A stretch of 64,000 nt of DNA from Comamonas terrigena NBRC 13299 (GTDB lineage: Bacteria > Pseudomonadota > Gammaproteobacteria > Burkholderiales > Burkholderiaceae_C). The stretch spans positions 2,623,001-2,687,000 of the forward strand of contig NZ_AP019749.1 of the NCBI RefSeq assembly GCF_006740045.1, given 5' to 3'. This document shows, piece after piece, positions 19,400 to 48,700 of the stretch (positions are counted from its first letter, which is position 1; every line of letters begins with the position of its first letter). The notes under the pieces are model-generated. The model saw nothing but the letters and a program-made list of their open reading frames with translations. It was not told the origin of the DNA and did no database searches. Both the position numbers and the translations under genes were made by a program.

Positions 19400-19984
19400 T
19401 CAGCGTCCCATGCTGAAGAACTCGTCGTTGGGCCGCATGCTGGTGACATTCGCCATGCGGTTGGACAGGCCGAAGAAGCTGGCAATGGCGGCGATGTCCC
19501 AGATATCGTCCTGGGTGAAGCCATGCGTCTGCAGCAGGGCAAAGTCGTCGTCGCCCACGCCGTGGGCGGCCTGCGAGACCTTCATGCCGAAGTCCAGCAT
19601 GGCTTTCTGGCGCGCGCTGAGGTCGGCCTTGCGGTAGTTGATGGCCACCTGGTCGGCAATCAGCGGGTTCTTGGCGCGGATGCGCAAAATGGCTCCGTGC
19701 GCCACCACGCAGTACTGGCACTGGTTGGCATTGCTGGTGGCCACCACAATCATCTCGCGCTCGGCCTTGGTCAGGTTGCCGGGCTTGTCCATCAGCGCAT
19801 CGTGGTAGGCAAAGAAGGCGCGGAATTCGTCCGGCCGGTGCGCCAGCACCAGAAACACATTCGGGATGAAGCCGGATTTTTCCTGCACCGCCAGGATGCG
19901 CTGGCGAATATCGTCGGGCAGGTCGTCGAGCTGCGGCACCGGAAAGCGGCTGATGGCAGGGGCGGAAGCGGTCGAAGCGGTCAC
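19400..19984 (-). CDS. Peroxidase-related AhpD/carboxymuconolactone decarboxylase-fold protein
   Basis: An AhpD-like protein of about 194 residues. The redox-active motif is visible as NQCQYCVVAHG, with the two Cys and following His of alkylhydroperoxidase-like enzymes, followed by the helix pattern LSARQKAMLDFGMKVS. It is of the 'uncharacterised peroxidase-related' size class, expected to reduce peroxides with an external thiol donor. The start is GTG at 19984, with GGAG nine bases upstream; no ATG gives the conserved N-terminus. It lies 116 bp downstream of the lipid-modification operon on the same strand and might protect its products, but no overlap forces cotranscription. Confidence 0.85.
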   Translation of the reverse strand: MTASTASAPAISRFPVPQLDDLPDDIRQRILAVQEKSGFIPNVFLVLAHRPDEFRAFFAYHDALMDKPGNLTKAEREMIVVATSNANQCQYCVVAHGAILRIRAKNPLIADQVAINYRKADLSARQKAMLDFGMKVSQAAHGVGDDDFALLQTHGFTQDDIWDIAAIASFFGLSNRMANVTSMRPNDEFFSMGR

Positions 19985-20100
19985 TGGGCAGGTCTCCTGG
20001 TTCTTTGCCCCAAGGGTAGCCGGCCCCGCCGGCGCAGACCAGCCCAGAACTACCCTGCCCTGCAGGCGCACGCTCTTGCTCCCTGCAGCCCCGTGCGGTG

Positions 20101-21036
20101 TCAGGGCACCGGGCCGGAGACCGTCTCCACCACGCGCTGCATGCGGGCGATTTCGCGCGCCGGCACCGGCTGCTCGCCCGACGCCATGCGCATCAGCAGG
20201 CAGTGCAGCATCTCGGTGGACAGGCCGTGCAGCACCAGGCGGTGGCCGGCACGCAGCGTGGACAGCGGCACCAGCGGGTGCTTGTTGTTCAGCATCACCA
20301 GGTGCTCGGGCGTGGCCAGGATCTTGGCGCAGTAGATGGCCAGGGTCTCGTCCAGCTGCAGGGAATTGCTGGCGCGCCAGAAGTCGTGGTCGGTCAGCAG
20401 CAGCTGGTAGACCGGGGTGTAGACCTCGATGGCGCTTTGCAGGTCCAGCTTGTTGAGCGGCCCGCACGGCATGTCTTCCAGCCGCAGCGTGGGCTCGGTC
20501 ACCATGGTGAAATCCGGTTCGGCCACCGGCCCCAGCTCCTTGCCTTCGGCGCGCAGCGCCTGGTTCAGGCGGATCACGAAGTTGAACAGGTTCAGATCGT
20601 GCTTGAGGAACAGCTCATCCTGGATGTCGTCGATGCAGGCCGGCTCGATGGGCGCGGTCTTGACCGGCGTGGGCGCATTGGCCGCCACAAAGGCCAGGAT
20701 GTGGGATCCCAGGTGGAAGTGCCGCATGATCAGCCAGTTCGCCTCCGGCGAGACAAAGGTGTTCATGCTGAAGGCCAGCACCTTGTGCAGCAGCCGGGAA
20801 TGCGCCCAGCGCTTGGGCAGCACCACCTTCAGGATCTGGATGGCGATGATGCTCAGCCGCGCCAGCGGGCGCAGAAACGGCAGCAGGTACTGGCGCGAGC
20901 TGCTGCTGCAGTCGCGCAGCCACGCGGCCTTGACGGCGTCGGGCAGCGGCGTGCTCTGGTCCAGGTACAGCGCCAGCCAGGGGTCGGGATCGCGCTCGTC
21001 CCAGGGCTGGTCCAGAAAATCCTTGTGCTTGTCCAT
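20101..21036 (-). CDS. Unrecognised mostly helical protein, last gene of the lipid-modification operon
   Basis: A 311-residue protein whose family I do not recognise. It has no signal peptide. A hydrophobic or amphipathic stretch (FLRPLARLSIIAIQILKVVL) is followed by HSRLLHKVLAF and NWLIMRHFHLGSHILAF, with several spaced His residues. The C-terminal half is helical, with a LNNKHPLVPLSTLRAGHRLVLHGLS region. The ATG at 21036 is supported by AGGAG six bases upstream. A GTG at 21057 overlapping the previous stop is also possible. Its position directly after the ketoacyl synthase-oxidase fusion suggests a dedicated role in the same pathway, perhaps binding or moving an acyl product at the membrane. 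Confidence 0.75.
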   Translation of the reverse strand: MDKHKDFLDQPWDERDPDPWLALYLDQSTPLPDAVKAAWLRDCSSSSRQYLLPFLRPLARLSIIAIQILKVVLPKRWAHSRLLHKVLAFSMNTFVSPEANWLIMRHFHLGSHILAFVAANAPTPVKTAPIEPACIDDIQDELFLKHDLNLFNFVIRLNQALRAEGKELGPVAEPDFTMVTEPTLRLEDMPCGPLNKLDLQSAIEVYTPVYQLLLTDHDFWRASNSLQLDETLAIYCAKILATPEHLVMLNNKHPLVPLSTLRAGHRLVLHGLSTEMLHCLLMRMASGEQPVPAREIARMQRVVETVSGPVP

Positions 21037-21053
21037 ATCGGGCTCCTGCTCTT

Positions 21054-23000
21054 TCACCGTGCCTGCGGCAGCACATGCTGGAACTGCATCAGGTACAGCT
21101 GGGCCGTGTGCTGCGCCGTCTGCACAATCGCCTGGGCCGCCGTGCCGTCGGCATCCAGCGCCAGCGCCATCTGCACCGCCATCAGCCAGCGCTCCAGGTG
21201 GTGCTCGTCATTGGCGCCGTGGTATTCCAGAAAGCGGAAGGCATCGGGCGGCAGCGGCAGCGCCTGGCGCAGCAGCGGCAGCAGGCTGGGCACGATGCGC
21301 TGGCCCGTGCCTTCGATGATGTAGATGGCGCCCAGCAGGCCGATGGGGTTGGGCGTGGCCGCCAGTCCGTGCAGGTAGGCGTTCAGCGCCTCCCCGCCCG
21401 GGTTGCGGCGCAGCTGGGCGATGTCGGTGGCCGTGCCGCCGGCCTTCAGGTAGTCGCTGTGCAGCACCTTGAAGTCGTGCTGCTCGTCGTCGGCATGCAG
21501 ATCGATCAGCCCGGCCAGCGCCGCGTATTCGCCGGTCAGCGAGGCCGCCCCTTCGCGCATCCACAGGCTGCCCTCGCGCACCTGGGGAATCCAGTGCCCC
21601 ATCCAGCGCACATAGTCGGCCGTGTCCAGCTGGCGCGTGCGCATGCGCTGCAGCAGCGGCGTGCGCCAGACGCGGGAGCGGTAGTCCTGCCAGATGCTGG
21701 CCAGCTCGGTCAGCAGCGGCGCCAGCGCCTGGGGCGCCGTGGCCGGATCGTGCGGCGCGGCAATGGTGGCCACATCGGGCAGCGCGCCCTGGTCGGCCGA
21801 ATCGGCTGCACCAGCGGCTGCGGCCTTGCGCGGCAGGGAGGCCTCGGGTGCGGCCTGCACCGGCGTGTCCGCCTCCACCTCCCACAGCATGAAACCGGCC
21901 GTGAAGCGCCCGGATTCGGGAATGAAGCACAGCACCGTGTCCCCGGCCTTCAGGCGCGCGCCCTGCTGCTGCAGAAACTCCGACAGCATGATGAAGATGG
22001 ACGCCGCACCGGTGTTGCCGCGCCAGGCCAGATTGCTCCACCAGCGCTCGCGCGGAATGCCCAGCTGCGCCTTCTCCAGCAGCTCGTCCACCACGGGGAT
22101 GAAACGCTCGGACGAGTAATGGCACAGGAAATGGTCGATCCCGCGCTCGGGCACCCAACCCTGGTGGGCCAGATCGGCGTACTCGTGGATGCAGACATCG
22201 AACAGGTGCGGCAGCAGGCGGATGTCCTGGCGCAGCGCCAGCGCGCCCGCGGCCTCGGCATCGCCCCAGGCGGGAAAGTCCAGGTGGCTGGTGCTGCGGT
22301 CCGGGGTCAGCCCCAGCTGCATGCAGACCGGGTAGTCGCCGGCAAAGCTGCGCTGGTGGGTCCAGCGCAGCTTCAGGCGCAGGCCCGGGGTGTGGGGCAG
22401 CGCCTGCGGCCCACCCAGCAGCACGGCCCCCGCGCCGTCCGACAGCATCCAGCGCAGGAAGTGCGCGTCGAAATCGGTGTCATAGCCCTGCGCCGCAAAG
22501 CGCGAACGCTTGAACAGGCGCGACGGCATCTCGCTGGCCACGGCCAGCGCCAGCGGGTGGGCACCGCCTTGCACCGCCTGGGCCGCGGCCTGCAGCGCAC
22601 CCACGCTGGCGGCGCACACGCCGTGCACGGACAGGGTCTCCATCGGCGGCGCGGCCATCTCGCCCTGGATCATGTTGGCAAAGCCCGGCATCAGCGCATC
22701 GCCCCCGGACGAGCCGCTGGACAGAAAGCCCACCTCGCCCAGCTTGCGGCCCGCCTGCGCCAGCGTGGCCTCGATGGCGGCCTGCGCCATCTGCGCGTTG
22801 CTGAACACAGTCTGCCCTTCCCCGTCGATGGCGTAGTGCCGGGTCTGGATGCCGTTCTCCCCCAGGATGCGGCGCTTGAGACGGTCGGAAATGCGGTTCA
22901 GCGGCGCCACATAGGCGTCCATCCCGGCGTTGTCCACCGGGGCGCCGGGCAGGAACATGCCGGCAGATTGCAGGTAGACGTTGGAATAGGCAACAGGCAT
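21054..23000 (-). CDS. Ketoacyl synthase III fused to a heme-oxygenase-like diiron oxidase (HDO) domain
   Basis: A two-domain enzyme of 648 residues. Residues 1-375 are FabH-like: catalytic Cys129 in VHGVCAASVG, His294 in FLCHYSSE and Asn329 in GNTGAAS form the usual Cys-His-Asn triad, so condensation or acyl transfer should work. An Ala/Pro-rich linker (about 380-425) leads to a C-terminal TenA/HDO-like helical domain. It has a plausible full diiron ligand set: E506, H514, E563, H594, D598 and H601; the H-xxx-D-xx-H spacing matches characterised HDOs such as SznF. HDOs oxidatively cleave or hydroxylate small molecules; UndA turns a fatty acid into a terminal alkene. The gene lies 18 bp after a desaturase gene and shortly before an unknown gene. 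The product is not predictable. Confidence 0.85.
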   Translation of the reverse strand: MPVAYSNVYLQSAGMFLPGAPVDNAGMDAYVAPLNRISDRLKRRILGENGIQTRHYAIDGEGQTVFSNAQMAQAAIEATLAQAGRKLGEVGFLSSGSSGGDALMPGFANMIQGEMAAPPMETLSVHGVCAASVGALQAAAQAVQGGAHPLALAVASEMPSRLFKRSRFAAQGYDTDFDAHFLRWMLSDGAGAVLLGGPQALPHTPGLRLKLRWTHQRSFAGDYPVCMQLGLTPDRSTSHLDFPAWGDAEAAGALALRQDIRLLPHLFDVCIHEYADLAHQGWVPERGIDHFLCHYSSERFIPVVDELLEKAQLGIPRERWWSNLAWRGNTGAASIFIMLSEFLQQQGARLKAGDTVLCFIPESGRFTAGFMLWEVEADTPVQAAPEASLPRKAAAAGAADSADQGALPDVATIAAPHDPATAPQALAPLLTELASIWQDYRSRVWRTPLLQRMRTRQLDTADYVRWMGHWIPQVREGSLWMREGAASLTGEYAALAGLIDLHADDEQHDFKVLHSDYLKAGGTATDIAQLRRNPGGEALNAYLHGLAATPNPIGLLGAIYIIEGTGQRIVPSLLPLLRQALPLPPDAFRFLEYHGANDEHHLERWLMAVQMALALDADGTAAQAIVQTAQHTAQLYLMQFQHVLPQAR

Positions 23001-23018
23001 GGAAAGTTCAGTTCGGGT

Positions 23019-23954
23019 TCATCGAATGGATTCGGGCGGCATCAGCGGCTGCGTGCGCGCACGGCGTGCAAACAGCCCCAGCACGAACACCCGGCCCATA
23101 TAGGGCAGCAGCCCGCCCTCGTTCAGCGCCGGGTGCACGCGGTGGCGGTACAGCCGCCGGTGCAGCCCCGTCAGCGCCGACCAATGGGCCTGCGGGTGTT
23201 CGTGGTGGGCCGTGTGCAGGCCGATATTGAACAGCAAGGGGTTCACCAGCCCCTCGAAATTGCGCGCGTAGTTCAGGGCGATACCGTCGGTCTTGCGCTG
23301 CGCCCTGGACAACGGGCGGCCGTCGGCATGGGCATGCTGCAGGTAGTTGGTGGCCAGCAGCCAGTGCAGGCCATGCAGCTGCGGCACGATGACGAACAGC
23401 AAGGCCTTGCGCCAGTCCAGCAGCAGCAGGAAGGTCCAGCTGCCCAGCCACAGCAGGTACTGGCCCATGCAGTAGCGAAACGCCCCGGGCCAGTGCCGGC
23501 GCAGATTCGCCAGCCAGCGGATGAACAGCGGGTACAGCACGCATGCCGCATGCAGCGGGTGGACCAGATAGCCCCACAGGTGGTTGGTGTCGCCGCCGAA
23601 CTCCGGCCGGTAGGTGCGCGCCACATCGCGCGGGCCGTGGCGGAAGCGGTGGTGGTTGCCCACATGGGCGGGCCAGAACACGAAGGTGGGATGGCCTTGC
23701 AGCAGGGTCAGCACATAGTCCGTCAGCCGGTTGGCCCAGCGCCCCCGCCACATGCGCAGGTGCGTGTGGTTGTGGTGGATCACGCCCACGCCCAGCGTCA
23801 GAAACAGCGTGATGGCATACAGCCACCAGACAAAACCATGCGTCCACTGCCAGACCACCAGGGCCGGCAGCGCCAGCAGATAGGCCACGGACTGCCAGTC
23901 GCGCTGGTGGCGCAGGCGCGGCAGAAGCTGGGCCGGGGCTGCCGCTGGCGGCAT
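23019..23954 (-). CDS. Membrane fatty acid desaturase-like protein
   Basis: An integral-membrane non-heme diiron enzyme of 311 residues. The histidine boxes are complete: H60-HNHTH65, H97 with HHRFRH106, NYLQHAHAD around 207-209, and HTAHHEH at 247-253, placed between hydrophobic hairpins. The superfamily covers acyl desaturases, hydroxylases and the alkene-forming decarboxylase UndB. Its ATG directly follows the stop of the sterol-desaturase-like gene (TGAATG) and it is 18 bp from the synthase-HDO fusion gene, so it is the second gene of a four-gene operon. Probable substrate: an acyl chain made or used by the fusion enzyme. Confidence 0.88.
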   Translation of the reverse strand: MPPAAAPAQLLPRLRHQRDWQSVAYLLALPALVVWQWTHGFVWWLYAITLFLTLGVGVIHHNHTHLRMWRGRWANRLTDYVLTLLQGHPTFVFWPAHVGNHHRFRHGPRDVARTYRPEFGGDTNHLWGYLVHPLHAACVLYPLFIRWLANLRRHWPGAFRYCMGQYLLWLGSWTFLLLLDWRKALLFVIVPQLHGLHWLLATNYLQHAHADGRPLSRAQRKTDGIALNYARNFEGLVNPLLFNIGLHTAHHEHPQAHWSALTGLHRRLYRHRVHPALNEGGLLPYMGRVFVLGLFARRARTQPLMPPESIR

Positions 23955-24740
23955 TCAGTGCCGGCCCTCGGGGGCCTTCGGAGACCCGGCGGACCCGGAG
24001 GATCCGGCGGACCGGGGGGCCGGTGCCTGCAGCTGGGTGCGCATCAGCTGGTCCATGAAGGCCAGCGCAAAGCCGTAGTTGCCGCGCGAACGCGCATGGT
24101 GCAGGTGGTGGCGCCGGCTGGCCGCCAGCGGGTGGGCGTCGGACACGCGCGGGAAGAAGTCGTAATTGGAATGCCCGATCACGTTCAGCACCAGGCTGAG
24201 CACCGGCACCGCCGCCAGCGACCAGAAATAGAAGTCGTGCACCAGCATGGGCAGCAGGATGATGTTGCCCAGCATCAGCGCCTCCAGCGGGTGGAAGCTG
24301 TAGGTCGACCAGGGCGTGGTCACATAGGAGCGGTGGTGGTCCCCATGGAAGCGGACCAGGGCCTTGGCGTGCAGCAGCCGGTGGTTCAGCCAGAAGTGCA
24401 CATCGTTCCAGACCATCAGCACCACGATCTCGGCCGCCACCCGGGCGGCGCTGGCCGTGGGGGCCAGCTGGGCCCAGCCCAGCTGCAACAGGCCCCAGGG
24501 CACGACCATGCCGGTGCCGAAGATCAGCACCGACAGCGCCGACTGGCGCCATTCGCGCTGCAGCTGGTCGGGCTGCAGGGCCCGCGTGTCCAGCACCTTG
24601 CCCACCTGGCGGCGCGCCAGCATGCGCGTCAGGGCCGTCATGCCCCAGCCGCCCAGCAGGTACAGCGCGCCAAAGAAGGCCAGGCCCACGGCCATGACCT
24701 GCCAGGCCGTGAGCTGGGTGAACCACAGACCGGCGTTCAT
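23955..24740 (-). CDS. Sterol desaturase/fatty acid hydroxylase superfamily protein
   Basis: A 261-residue membrane protein with the superfamily's metal-binding histidines: H115-FWLNH120-RLLH124, HGDHH at 132-136, H150, H190 and HHLHH at 211-215, between about four hydrophobic segments. Members hydroxylate or desaturate sterols, carotenoids or fatty acids using a diiron centre. It is the first gene of the four-gene operon. Upstream, a TATCAT element (24816-24821, minus strand; five of six -10 bases) is the best promoter candidate, without a good -35 box. A Ser/Gly/Pro-rich tail follows the last conserved region. The substrate is unknown. Confidence 0.87.
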   Translation of the reverse strand: MNAGLWFTQLTAWQVMAVGLAFFGALYLLGGWGMTALTRMLARRQVGKVLDTRALQPDQLQREWRQSALSVLIFGTGMVVPWGLLQLGWAQLAPTASAARVAAEIVVLMVWNDVHFWLNHRLLHAKALVRFHGDHHRSYVTTPWSTYSFHPLEALMLGNIILLPMLVHDFYFWSLAAVPVLSLVLNVIGHSNYDFFPRVSDAHPLAASRRHHLHHARSRGNYGFALAFMDQLMRTQLQAPAPRSAGSSGSAGSPKAPEGRH

Positions 24741-40839: not shown

Positions 40840-42477
40840 TTACAGCCCCGGCAGCTTGTAGCCGGCCAGTTGTTCGCGCAGCTTGGTCTTGAGCATCTTG
40901 CCGGTCGCCCCCAGCGGAATGGCGTCCACAAACACCACATCGTCCGGAATCTGCCACTTGGCCGTCTTGCCGTCGAAAAAGGCCAGCAGCTCCTCGCGCG
41001 AGACCTCGGCACCGGCCTTCTTCGCCACTGCCACGATGGGGCGCTCGTCCCACTTGGGATGGGGCATGCCGATGCAGGCCGCCATGGCCACCGCCGGGTG
41101 GCCCATGGCAATGTTCTCGATGTCGATGGAACTGATCCACTCCCCGCCGGACTTGATCACGTCCTTGGTGCGGTCGGTGATCTGCATATAGCCGTCGGGG
41201 TCGATGGTGGCCACGTCGCCGGTGGGGAACCAGCCGCGCCCTTCCTCGTCCTTGACCAGGGGGCTGGCACCCTTGTAGTAGGTGTCCAGAATCCACGGCC
41301 CGCGCACCAGCAGGTCGCCGCAGGCCTTGCCGTCCCAGGGCTGGTCCCGGCCGTCGCTGTCCACGATGCGCATGTCCACGCCGTAGATGGGACGGCCCTG
41401 CTTCTGCAGGATCTTGCGCTGCTGCTCCTTGGGCAGCGCCAGGTGCTTGTTCTTGAGCGTGCCCAGCGTGCCCAGCGGGCTCATCTCGGTCATGCCCCAG
41501 GCGTGCAGCACGCGCACGCCATAGGTGTCCTCGAAGGTGTCGATCATGGCCGGCGGGCAGGCCGAGCCGCCGATCACCGTGCGGTTGAGGTGGCTGAACT
41601 TCAGGCCGCCCTGCTGCATATGGGTCAGCAGCATCTGCCAGACGGTGGGCACACCGGCGGCAAAAGTGACGCCTTCGGCCTCGATCAGATCGTACAGCGA
41701 CTTGCCGTCCAGCGCCGGGCCGGGGAAGACCACCTTGGCGCCGGTCAGCGCGGCCGAATACGGCAGGCCCCAGGCATTGACGTGGAACATGGGCACCACG
41801 GGCAGCACGGCATCGCGCGCCGACAGGTTCATCACATCGGGCAGCGCCGCGCCGTAGGCGTGCAGCACGCTGGAGCGGTGGCTGTACAGCACCGCCTTGG
41901 GGTTGCCGGTGGTGCCGCTGGTGTAGCACATGCTGGAAGCGGTGTTCTCGTCCAGCTGGGGCCAGCGGTAGTTCTTGGACTGGCCGGCAATCCAGGCCTC
42001 GTAGCTGACCAGGCCGGGAATGCCACTGTCGGTCGGCAGCTTGTCGGCATCGCACAGCGCCACCCACTGGCGCACCGTGGGGCACTTGGCGTGCACCGCC
42101 TGGATCAGCGGCAGGAAGGTGGTGTCGAAGCACAGCACCTGGTCTTCGGCGTGGTTGACGATCCAGGCAATCTGCTCGGGGTGCAGGCGCGGGTTGATGG
42201 TGTGCAGCACCCGGCCCGAGCCGCTGACGCCGTAGTACATCTCCATGTGGCGGTAGCCGTTCCAGGCCAGCGATGCCACGCGGTCGCCGTGGGCCAGCTT
42301 CAGCCCGTCCAGCGCATTGGCCAGCTGCTTGGCGCGGGCCGTCAGGTCGCGGTAGGTGTAGCGGTGGATGTCGCCCTCCACGCGGCGCGAGACGATTTCG
42401 GCGTCGCCGTGGAAGCGGTTGGCAAATTCAATCAGCGACGAAATCAGCAGCTGCTGATCCTGCATCAAACCTTGCAT
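40840..42477 (-). CDS. AMP-dependent long/medium-chain fatty acid-CoA ligase
   Basis: An acyl-CoA synthetase of 545 residues. The ATP motif is MCYTSGTTGNPKAVLYSH, the adenylate motif HAWGMTEMSPLG, and the hinge ITDRTKDVIKSGGEWISSIDIE. The C-terminal lysine region is PLGATGKMLKTKLREQL. It makes an acyl-AMP and then the CoA ester of a carboxylic acid. The ATG at 42477 has AAGGAG ten bases upstream. It lies 297 bp before the LIV-type importer 1 genes on the same strand, a likely importer-activator partnership. A 12-bp palindrome GGGGATATCCCC sits at 40721-40732 in the gap. Confidence 0.93.
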   Translation of the reverse strand: MQGLMQDQQLLISSLIEFANRFHGDAEIVSRRVEGDIHRYTYRDLTARAKQLANALDGLKLAHGDRVASLAWNGYRHMEMYYGVSGSGRVLHTINPRLHPEQIAWIVNHAEDQVLCFDTTFLPLIQAVHAKCPTVRQWVALCDADKLPTDSGIPGLVSYEAWIAGQSKNYRWPQLDENTASSMCYTSGTTGNPKAVLYSHRSSVLHAYGAALPDVMNLSARDAVLPVVPMFHVNAWGLPYSAALTGAKVVFPGPALDGKSLYDLIEAEGVTFAAGVPTVWQMLLTHMQQGGLKFSHLNRTVIGGSACPPAMIDTFEDTYGVRVLHAWGMTEMSPLGTLGTLKNKHLALPKEQQRKILQKQGRPIYGVDMRIVDSDGRDQPWDGKACGDLLVRGPWILDTYYKGASPLVKDEEGRGWFPTGDVATIDPDGYMQITDRTKDVIKSGGEWISSIDIENIAMGHPAVAMAACIGMPHPKWDERPIVAVAKKAGAEVSREELLAFFDGKTAKWQIPDDVVFVDAIPLGATGKMLKTKLREQLAGYKLPGL

Positions 42478-47067: not shown

Positions 47068-48700
47068 TCAGGCCGCGCACAGATCCGGCTGGCGCAGCAG
47101 ATGCTTCTGGATCTTGCCGCTGGTGGTCTTGGGCAGGCTGTCCACAAAGTGGTAGCTGCGCGGGCGCTTGTAGCTGGCCAGGCGGTCGCCCTGCATCAGA
47201 AAGGCATCCAGCACCGCCGCCGTCACCGCCGTGCCCGGCTTGGCCACCACATAGGCGGCCACCACCTGGCCCCAGCGCGCGTCCTTCTCGCCCACCACGG
47301 CCGCTTCCAGCACCTCGGCGTGCTCGACCAGGGCATCTTCCACCTCGCGCGGGTAGACGTTCTCCGCCCCCGAATTGATCATGTAGTCGATGCGGTCGCG
47401 GATCCACAGATAGCCATCGGCATCCAGGTGCCCCAGATCGCCGGTGTGGTACCAGCCGTGGGCCAGCGCCTTGGCGTTGGCCTCCGGGCGGTTCAGGTAG
47501 CCGGCCATCATGCAGGGGCCGCGCACCAGGATCTCGCCCACCTCGCCCACCGCGCAGGCGTCGGACGGGTCGGTGGCGGCGCCGTCCTCGCGCACCCGCG
47601 CCACCACCAGATCGTGGTTCAGCGACGGCAGGCCGGCCGAGCCGGCATGGCTGAGCTGCTCATGCGGATACAGCACCGACATGCACGGCCCCATTTCGGT
47701 GGTGCCGAAGACCTGCACCAGGCCCGATCCCACCTGGCGCGTCCATTCGCGGATCAGGTGCGGCGCCATCGAGGCCCCGCCGTACTCCACCAGGCGCAGC
47801 GACGACAGATCGCGCTGCCCCAGGCTCGCGTCGTTCAGCAGCATGGTGACCATGGTCGGCGCGGCAAAGAAGAAGGTGACTTTTTTCCGCCTCCACCAGG
47901 CGCAGCGCATCGGCCGCATCAAAGCGGCGCTGCAGCACCTGGGTGGCGCCCACCTGCAGGCGCGGCAAAAAGCTGGTGTGCAGCTCGGCCGTGTGGTTCA
48001 GCGGGGCCACCGACAGGCCCACATCCTCGCGGCGGAACTGCATCACCTGGTGCATCATGGCGTTGTGTGCCAGCTTGCTGCGGTGGGTGTGCAGCACGCC
48101 CTTGGGGCGGCCGGTGGTGCCGCTGGTGTACATCAGGATGCAGGGCGCATCCTCGTCCACCCGCACGTCCACCGGCGTGGCGGGCTGGCCGTCTGCCAGC
48201 GCGGCCAGCTGCGCGGTGGCAAAGGCCGGTGCGGCGCCCGGATCGGCATGGATCCAGTGCTGCACCTGGGGCACCAGCAGCCTGGCCTTCTCGACCACGG
48301 CAGCGCCCTCATCCTCGAACACCAGCGCCTTGGCACTGCCGTCCTGCAGGATGAACGCCAGCTCCTGCGCGGCCAGCCGGTAGTTGATGGGGTTGAAGAT
48401 GGCACCCAGGCGCGCCGTCGCCAGCAAGGTGAACACAAAGGCCGGCGTGTTGTACAGAAAGGCCGCCACCACATCGCCCTGGCCAATGCCCAGCTGCTGC
48501 AGGCCGTGGGCGTGGCGGTTCACCTCGGCATCCAGCTCGGCATAGGTCCAGGCGCGGCGGCCCTGCGCGTCCGACACCACCAGCGCCTCCTTGCGCGGCA
48601 GATAGCGCGCCGGCCAGGCCAGCGTGTCGCCCAGGGTCAGCGCCGCACGCGGTGCCGGGACAGGGGCTGCGCCCGCGGGGGAAAACTGTGTGTCGACCAA
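47068..48700 (-). pseudogene. Acyl-CoA synthetase split by a one-base frameshift
   Basis: An AMP-binding ligase in two frames. The upstream part has the ATP motif MYTSGTTGRPKGVLHTH; the downstream part has VFGTTEMGPCM and DRIDYMINSGAENVYPREVE and ends with TTSGKIQKHLL. The break is at a six-T run (47881-47886; six A on the coding strand). With five, the frame reads EAEKVTFFFAA and the whole gene would encode about 543 residues. The start is TTG at 48700 with AAGGAG six bases upstream. The intact flanks and homopolymer position make an assembly error quite possible; true decay or slippage cannot be excluded. It likely activated a fatty or related acid. Confidence 0.85.

Follow-up and report, generated by a model that had tools for sequence, protein, structure and literature searches.

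What do four tightly packed genes make when two of them encode membrane enzymes, the third joins a condensing enzyme to a haem-oxygenase-like domain and the fourth belongs to a family of unknown function? Such a set, here called genes A to D, lies on the minus strand of the genome of Comamonas terrigena NBRC 13299 (assembly GCF_006740045.1; 4.67 Mb in one contig, NZ_AP019749.1), in a stretch of 64,000 nucleotides (positions 2623001-2687000) that was analysed as a whole and is referred to as the window. An earlier note had described the set as an operon in which three presumed oxygen-activating iron enzymes accompany a condensing enzyme. We find that the operon is real and conserved, being kept across families, present all-or-none within the genus and found without gene B in Lysobacter. 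The unit, consisting of known kinds of enzymes and one family of unknown function, is apparently undescribed, as that note had supposed; in the open-licence PubMed Central literature (most subscription papers lie outside it) we found no description of a fusion of a ketosynthase to a haem-oxygenase-like diiron oxidase (HDO) or of this gene set. Our tentative answer is that the operon is a small lipid-biosynthesis unit that may make a tailored dialkyl aromatic or diketone lipid by the steps proposed below.

Operon structure

The four consecutive open reading frames were called on the window sequence and occupy positions 24740-20101 on the minus strand in the order A-B-C-D. Gene A (23955..24740) encodes a fatty-acid-hydroxylase or sterol-desaturase-type membrane enzyme of 261 aa, gene B (23019..23954) a fatty-acid-desaturase-type membrane enzyme of 311 aa, gene C (21054..23000) a fusion of 648 aa between a StlD/DarB-like ketosynthase and a haem-oxygenase-like (PF14518) domain, and gene D (20101..21036) a DUF6999 protein. 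The tight packing described in the earlier note is seen directly in the sequence: no base lies between A and B, a gap of 18 bp separates B from C, and C and D overlap in GTGA. The overlap involves the longest version of D, a 318-aa open reading frame spanning 21057-20101 that opens at a GTG at 21057; the start is more likely the ATG at 21036, which is preceded by AGGAG and would give a protein of 311 aa, and the database relative P0121, which is 99% identical, also has 311 aa. A simple promoter and terminator scan limited to the sigma-70 consensus found no promoter on the operon strand between 19600 and 25200. The closest named database proteins come from Comamonas.

Conservation of the gene set

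When GTDB species genomes were searched with C, 37 loci were obtained, and the order A-B-C-D is kept in 32 of them, including loci from Comamonas, Delftia, Acidovorax, Iodobacter, Collimonas and Chitinibacter (the contig of L015 breaks off within D, and the match to A begins at residue 57 in L026). The four-gene synteny is thus conserved, and the genes remain together across several families. The five exceptions are three Lysobacter loci that have A without B, a Collimonas locus (L027) where the contig ends behind C, and a Corticibacter locus (L019) with C-D alone. Searches of whole genomes gave no match to B at an E value of 0.001 in any of the three Lysobacter genomes; in Corticibacter they placed A and B side by side elsewhere in the genome, about 100 kb off if the contig numbering is identical. 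C begins -17 to 18 bp from the end of B in the 32 loci with reported spacing. The gap between the end of C and the start of the match to D does not exceed 86 bp in 32 of 36 loci, the other four (L024, L025, L026 and L028) having 319-457 bp. The ketosynthase and PF14518 domains stand side by side in all 37 loci, in a single open frame in the fused ones. One of these loci (L022) comes from an assembly titled 'Pantoea sp. 18069'; its copy and the Comamonas protein share 84% identity, which points to mislabelling or mixing of the assembly.

Among 53 Comamonas genomes, A (at E <1e-100), B and D are each present in 40, and the three sets of 40 genomes are identical, so that presence is all-or-none within the genus; two further genomes have only a weak match to A (31% identity, E near 4e-4). 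Because the genomes are related, the 40 do not represent independent events. In all 40 the matches share a contig and a strand, and the distance between B and D is 1980-2098 bp, which leaves room for C; the queries were A, B and D and not C, and in one genome (G403) the remainder of D is on a second contig. Outside the genus DUF6999 is rare, with matches in 6 of 200 family genomes, 9 of 398 phylum genomes, and 2 of 119 and 2 of 197 genomes in two more groups (these counts include the window's own genome and repeats), as well as in one of 14 named control genomes, that of Caulobacter vibrioides; altogether it was found in 51 different genomes. When 3.8-kb loci were retrieved via DUF6999 alone, both the ketosynthase and the oxidase domain were present in 15 of the 15 inspected, the window's own locus included.

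Core and accessory genes

In four genomes the ketosynthase and the oxidase are encoded by separate genes followed by DUF6999. Two of these split-type genomes (G223 and G663) belong to one family elsewhere in the phylum and the other two (G368 and G871) to the window's own class; the named database relatives of the G223 DUF6999 protein come from Sphingomonas, Novosphingobium and their kin. Genome searches of the four found no B, and either no A or just distant A-like proteins with 28-33% identity. Since these genomes lack B and a close A, yet keep the ketosynthase, the oxidase and DUF6999, the latter three constitute the core of the system, and A and B are dispensable accessories. A 188-aa histidine-rich membrane protein without a Pfam match is encoded at L048:11941-12507 and abuts the split-type ketosynthase gene of G368; it has no relative in the other loci searched.

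The ketosynthase domain

The ketosynthase occupies residues 1-378 of C (21867..23000). Its triad Cys129, His294 and Asn329 is complete at the positions given in the earlier note and invariant in 24 fused proteins as well as in a mixed set of seven (three fused, four split-type). By domain call it is a ketosynthase of the ACP-synthase-III type. The label FabH-like is too loose because C scores 301.5 bits with the StlD/DarB model NF005293 and only 54.1 bits with the fabH model, in the first case below the curated cut-off of 450 and in the second below the cut-off of 292.1. Among 299 genomes, NF005293 matches seven proteins at 560-601 bits and five of this system at 302-344 bits, and the next score is 66.

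StlD is the best solved relative of the ketosynthase both by sequence and by fold, taking Foldseek ranks 1-6 and VIA ranks 1-2 for the model of C. The model is modest, with a predicted local distance difference test score (pLDDT) of 74.8, a predicted template modelling score (pTM) of 0.54, and parts of the ketosynthase below a pLDDT of 50. C is thus like StlD/DarB in its closest sequence and fold, in the Cys-His-Asn triad and in aligning over the full length; it is unlike them in being only 32-38% identical to seven DarB-type proteins, in scoring below the family cut-off, and in that the ketosynthase is joined to an oxidase domain in most loci seen. In a tree of ketosynthases, the DarB proteins form a clade of their own with support 100 and the fused C proteins lie outside it, and the ketosynthase of L049 is placed between the fused rows and the DarB and split-type rows. 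The C loci also differ from the dialkylresorcinol (dar) cluster with respect to the usual neighbour gene of DarB, which encodes a 305-aa protein: it is present in four of four DarB control loci, and a local search found none in the window and 62 loci of 3.8-19.5 kb (with repeats from one genome).

The haem-oxygenase-like domain

A linker that varies in length and sequence (residues 379-419; 21744..21866; pLDDT <50 at residues 381-406) leads to the oxidase domain (residues 420-648; 21057..21743), which matches PF14518 with 38.5 bits in the whole of C and 41.6 bits when taken alone (cut-off 28.9), and whose model is helical with blocks mostly at pLDDT 81-94. The Foldseek and VIA lists for the whole model of C are filled by ketosynthases and have no rows for the HDO half.

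Eight residues (E476, H502, E506, D509, E563, H594, D598 and H601) are invariant in nine fused and split oxidase domains and likewise in a set of 12. The full ligand set proposed in the earlier note (E506, H514, E563, H594, D598, H601) therefore stands in five of its positions, which are invariant, and fails at H514, which is H, F or Y among ten fused proteins. Five of the six positions of the metal motif E-H-E-H-(D/E)-H are fitted by E506, E563, H594, D598 and H601. At the remaining position, that of the first histidine, the alignment to PDB 3DDE places D509 on the histidine of the E-x-x-H pair; the invariant H502 lies seven residues before D509, and E476 is on the preceding helix. A MAFFT alignment to the CADD family gives a less clear picture, with a gap at the place of D509, and because of this gap the exchange of histidine for aspartate is based chiefly on conservation and the 3DDE alignment. 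The domain resembles the HDO superfamily (UndA, BesC, SznF, CADD/PabS, FlcD) in its PF14518 match, its helical model and the E-x-E-H-D-H frame, and one split-type oxidase matches the CADD model weakly (25.1 bits against a cut-off of 200). It differs from the characterised HDOs in having Asp509 aligned at the place of the first histidine, with the invariant His502 nearby, and in sitting behind a ketosynthase. A term search of the HDO review found no mention of a fusion to a ketosynthase, and passages of the PabS paper (PMC11965152) yielded no usable numbering of metal ligands.

The DUF6999 protein

D is a full-length member of PF22523 (420.6 bits, profile positions 2-274 of 275), and its all-helical model is confident (pLDDT 86.2, pTM 0.84). 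Neither Foldseek nor VIA returned a significant match of this fold among solved or viral structures, no sequence relative was found in the PDB, and the name DUF6999 was not found in open-licence PubMed Central papers. The Pfam matches of family members beyond PF22523 are weak and involve three families with one member each. Six residues (H113, H153, D154, D236, H277 and E282, numbered on the 318-aa reading frame) are invariant across eight DUF6999 sequences, one of which is just 27% identical to that of the window, and they look like an active or metal site. The H...HD...D order is similar to that of HD-domain metalloproteins, but we do not claim this identity because no profile or fold search listed such an entry.

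The membrane enzymes

The histidine boxes of both membrane enzymes are intact, as the earlier note had it. The ten histidines of A (H115, H120, H124, H132, H135, H136, H190, H211, H214 and H215) and the ten of B (H61, H63, H65, H97, H101, H102, H106, H247, H250 and H251) are kept in 48 of 48 rows each; the rows counted cover at least 70% of the window protein and include some second copies from one genome. A matches PF04116 with 74.1 bits and B matches PF00487 with 56.2 bits, both above the cut-off. No NCBIfam model matched either protein, B has no PDB relative by sequence, and A has a single, unrelated PDB match (E 0.65). Among known systems they come closest to UndB and other membrane desaturases and hydroxylases in that A and B carry the histidine boxes of PF04116 and PF00487, the comparison having been made with these two families.

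Neighbouring genes

In the window the operon is flanked by an acyl-CoA dehydrogenase gene before A (26810-24912) and by an AhpD-like, peroxidase-related gene of the carboxymuconolactone-decarboxylase type behind D (19400-20467). The former was considered as a member of the operon and excluded because it adjoins the cassette in just two of the 37 loci (L007 and L011; L023 has a distant 36% match), and the latter was excluded as well, having no match in the 37 loci.

Other neighbours are found in single lineages. In G316 the gene of a prokaryotic diacylglycerol kinase (DgkA; L049:9171-9557) shares 4 bp with the end of the DUF6999 gene in an overlap that suggests co-translation. In G223 a 1133-aa LplT-Aas-like fusion of a major facilitator superfamily (MFS) transporter, an acyltransferase and an AMP ligase is encoded directly behind DUF6999 (L047:5697-9098); searches of the G663, G368 and G871 loci gave no match to it. 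Weak matches to it (24-28% identity) at 40894-42462 and 47110-48481 of the window point to further acyl-ligase-type genes about 16-24 kb from the operon. Phospholipase D (PLD)-like genes of two kinds stand directly before A in two lineages (L050:4978-6135 and L051:4828-6393), their products being just 29% identical over 135 residues. An acetoacetate-decarboxylase-family gene precedes A in loci of the Iodobacter type (L025:5369-6202) and recurs in L026 and L028, with a short match in L024. The MFS-acyltransferase gene of L025 was rejected as a neighbour of the cassette, an M23 peptidase gene and an AnmK gene lying between it and D. Among the loci searched, none of the DgkA, LplT-Aas-like, PLD-like and acetoacetate-decarboxylase-family neighbours recurs beside the cassette across lineages; as a group they hint at membrane-lipid or beta-keto chemistry.

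Proposed pathway and alternatives

From the genes, domains, triad, histidine boxes and linkage described above we infer the following reactions and product. The ketosynthase would load an acyl group on Cys129 and join it head to head with a second, probably beta-ketoacyl, thioester, which would be drawn from general fatty acid metabolism because the operon has no gene for a carrier protein. The product of the condensation would be a 1,3-dicarbonyl or a 2,5-dialkylcyclohexane-1,3-dione-type intermediate. The HDO domain, using O2 at a di-iron or other metal centre, would oxidise this intermediate in cis, most likely by desaturation or aromatisation, and so take over the job of the protein encoded beside DarB in dialkylresorcinol clusters. 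DUF6999 would perform or scaffold the third core step, and the optional enzymes A and B, of the membrane di-iron type, would introduce hydroxyl groups and double bonds into the alkyl chains in the membrane. More broadly, we consider it possible, though short of probable, that the operon represents a widespread undescribed pathway in which a head-to-head ketosynthase is paired in cis with an HDO that uses O2 and has a new type of ligand set (Glu-Asp-Glu-His-Asp-His plus an extra His), together with DUF6999 as a third core enzyme whose fold is unmatched and which possibly binds metal.

Several points weigh against this interpretation. The reaction of the ketosynthase may differ from that of StlD/DarB because C reaches 301 of the 450 bits needed for that family. 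In a tree rooted with FabH, on a very long branch, the four split-type ketosynthases group with DarB (11 rows, support 99) and apart from the fused ones, and the ketosynthases of this system may therefore not form one clade. The metal site of C may be altered or mononuclear, since Asp509 aligns at the place of the first canonical HDO histidine. The test for the partner gene of DarB is local only, its range being the 64-kb window and loci that span 3.8-19.5 kb; the 305-aa partner is DarA, which acts as an aromatase. Finally, the DgkA, LplT-Aas-like and PLD-like neighbours hint at membrane lipid turnover instead.

This last point leads to an alternative that we regard as rather unlikely but less so than the others considered, namely that the operon serves to make or remodel a membrane lipid of the ordinary kind, with A and B acting on phospholipid acyl chains and the ketosynthase supplying an unusual acyl chain for the membrane and not a secreted metabolite. 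The families of A and B are those of membrane fatty-acid enzymes, and in single lineages the cassette has genes of phospholipid turnover beside it (DgkA in L049, the LplT-Aas-like fusion in L047, and PLD-like genes in L050 and L051). However, no such neighbour recurs in another lineage among the loci searched, and for this reason each may be there by chance. A StlD/DarB-type ketosynthase with an HDO domain is not known from any membrane lipid pathway.

We find it doubtful that the operon serves hydrocarbon or ketone synthesis, in which an OleA-like condensation to a beta-keto acid would be followed by UndA-like oxidative decarboxylation to an alkene, enone or ketone. C shares the thiolase fold with OleA and PpyS, and the joining of two acyl chains is the reaction assumed here, but its structural score with these enzymes is lower than with StlD. 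Whereas OleA has a catalytic glutamate about 24-26 residues before the cysteine, the C ketosynthase has no glutamate at that distance by sequence; Pro105 is invariant 24 residues before Cys129 in 24 fused proteins, a comparison of sequence position. The hydrocarbon or ketone product suggested in the earlier note is not supported, the ketosynthase being closest to StlD and not to OleA, and a hydrocarbon is just one rival among others.

It is comparably doubtful that the haem-oxygenase-like domain is metal-free or mononuclear, as in PqqC/TenA or FlcD, and acts for example as a cyclase closing the condensed chain or as a hydrolase releasing it. According to PMC11363339, HDOs bind two metals through E-H-E-H-(D/E)-H, and metal-free and mononuclear members of the fold exist; the E-H-X-H-(D/E)-H frame is kept in about 85% of the 150 largest HDO groups and reads E-H-X-H-V-R in one, an Asn is present in the last three positions in about 4%, and about 9% give no strong prediction. 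The aspartate aligned with the first canonical histidine, invariant in 12 profile sequences, fits this alternative. On the other side, E506, E563, H594, D598, H601, H502 and E476 are invariant down to the split-type proteins, which are 31-36% identical, as would be the case for a metal site.

That the genes are chance neighbours without a joint function is highly improbable, because their all-or-none presence in 40 of 53 genomes, the order kept across families and the core linkage in 15 of 15 loci outweigh by count the three Lysobacter and four split-type genomes that lack B and the separate location of A and B in Corticibacter.

Significance

If the proposed lipid pathway is correct, many Comamonas and Delftia and some more distant Proteobacteria would make a lipid for which we found no report, and one polypeptide would carry out both condensation and oxygen-dependent oxidation. 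A clade of HDOs with aspartate in place of the first histidine would test what the site needs for the activation of O2, and DUF6999 would gain its first functional context. The operon is present in named cultivable strains, including Comamonas testosteroni ATCC 11996 and Delftia acidovorans NBRC 14950, and the pathway is therefore directly testable.

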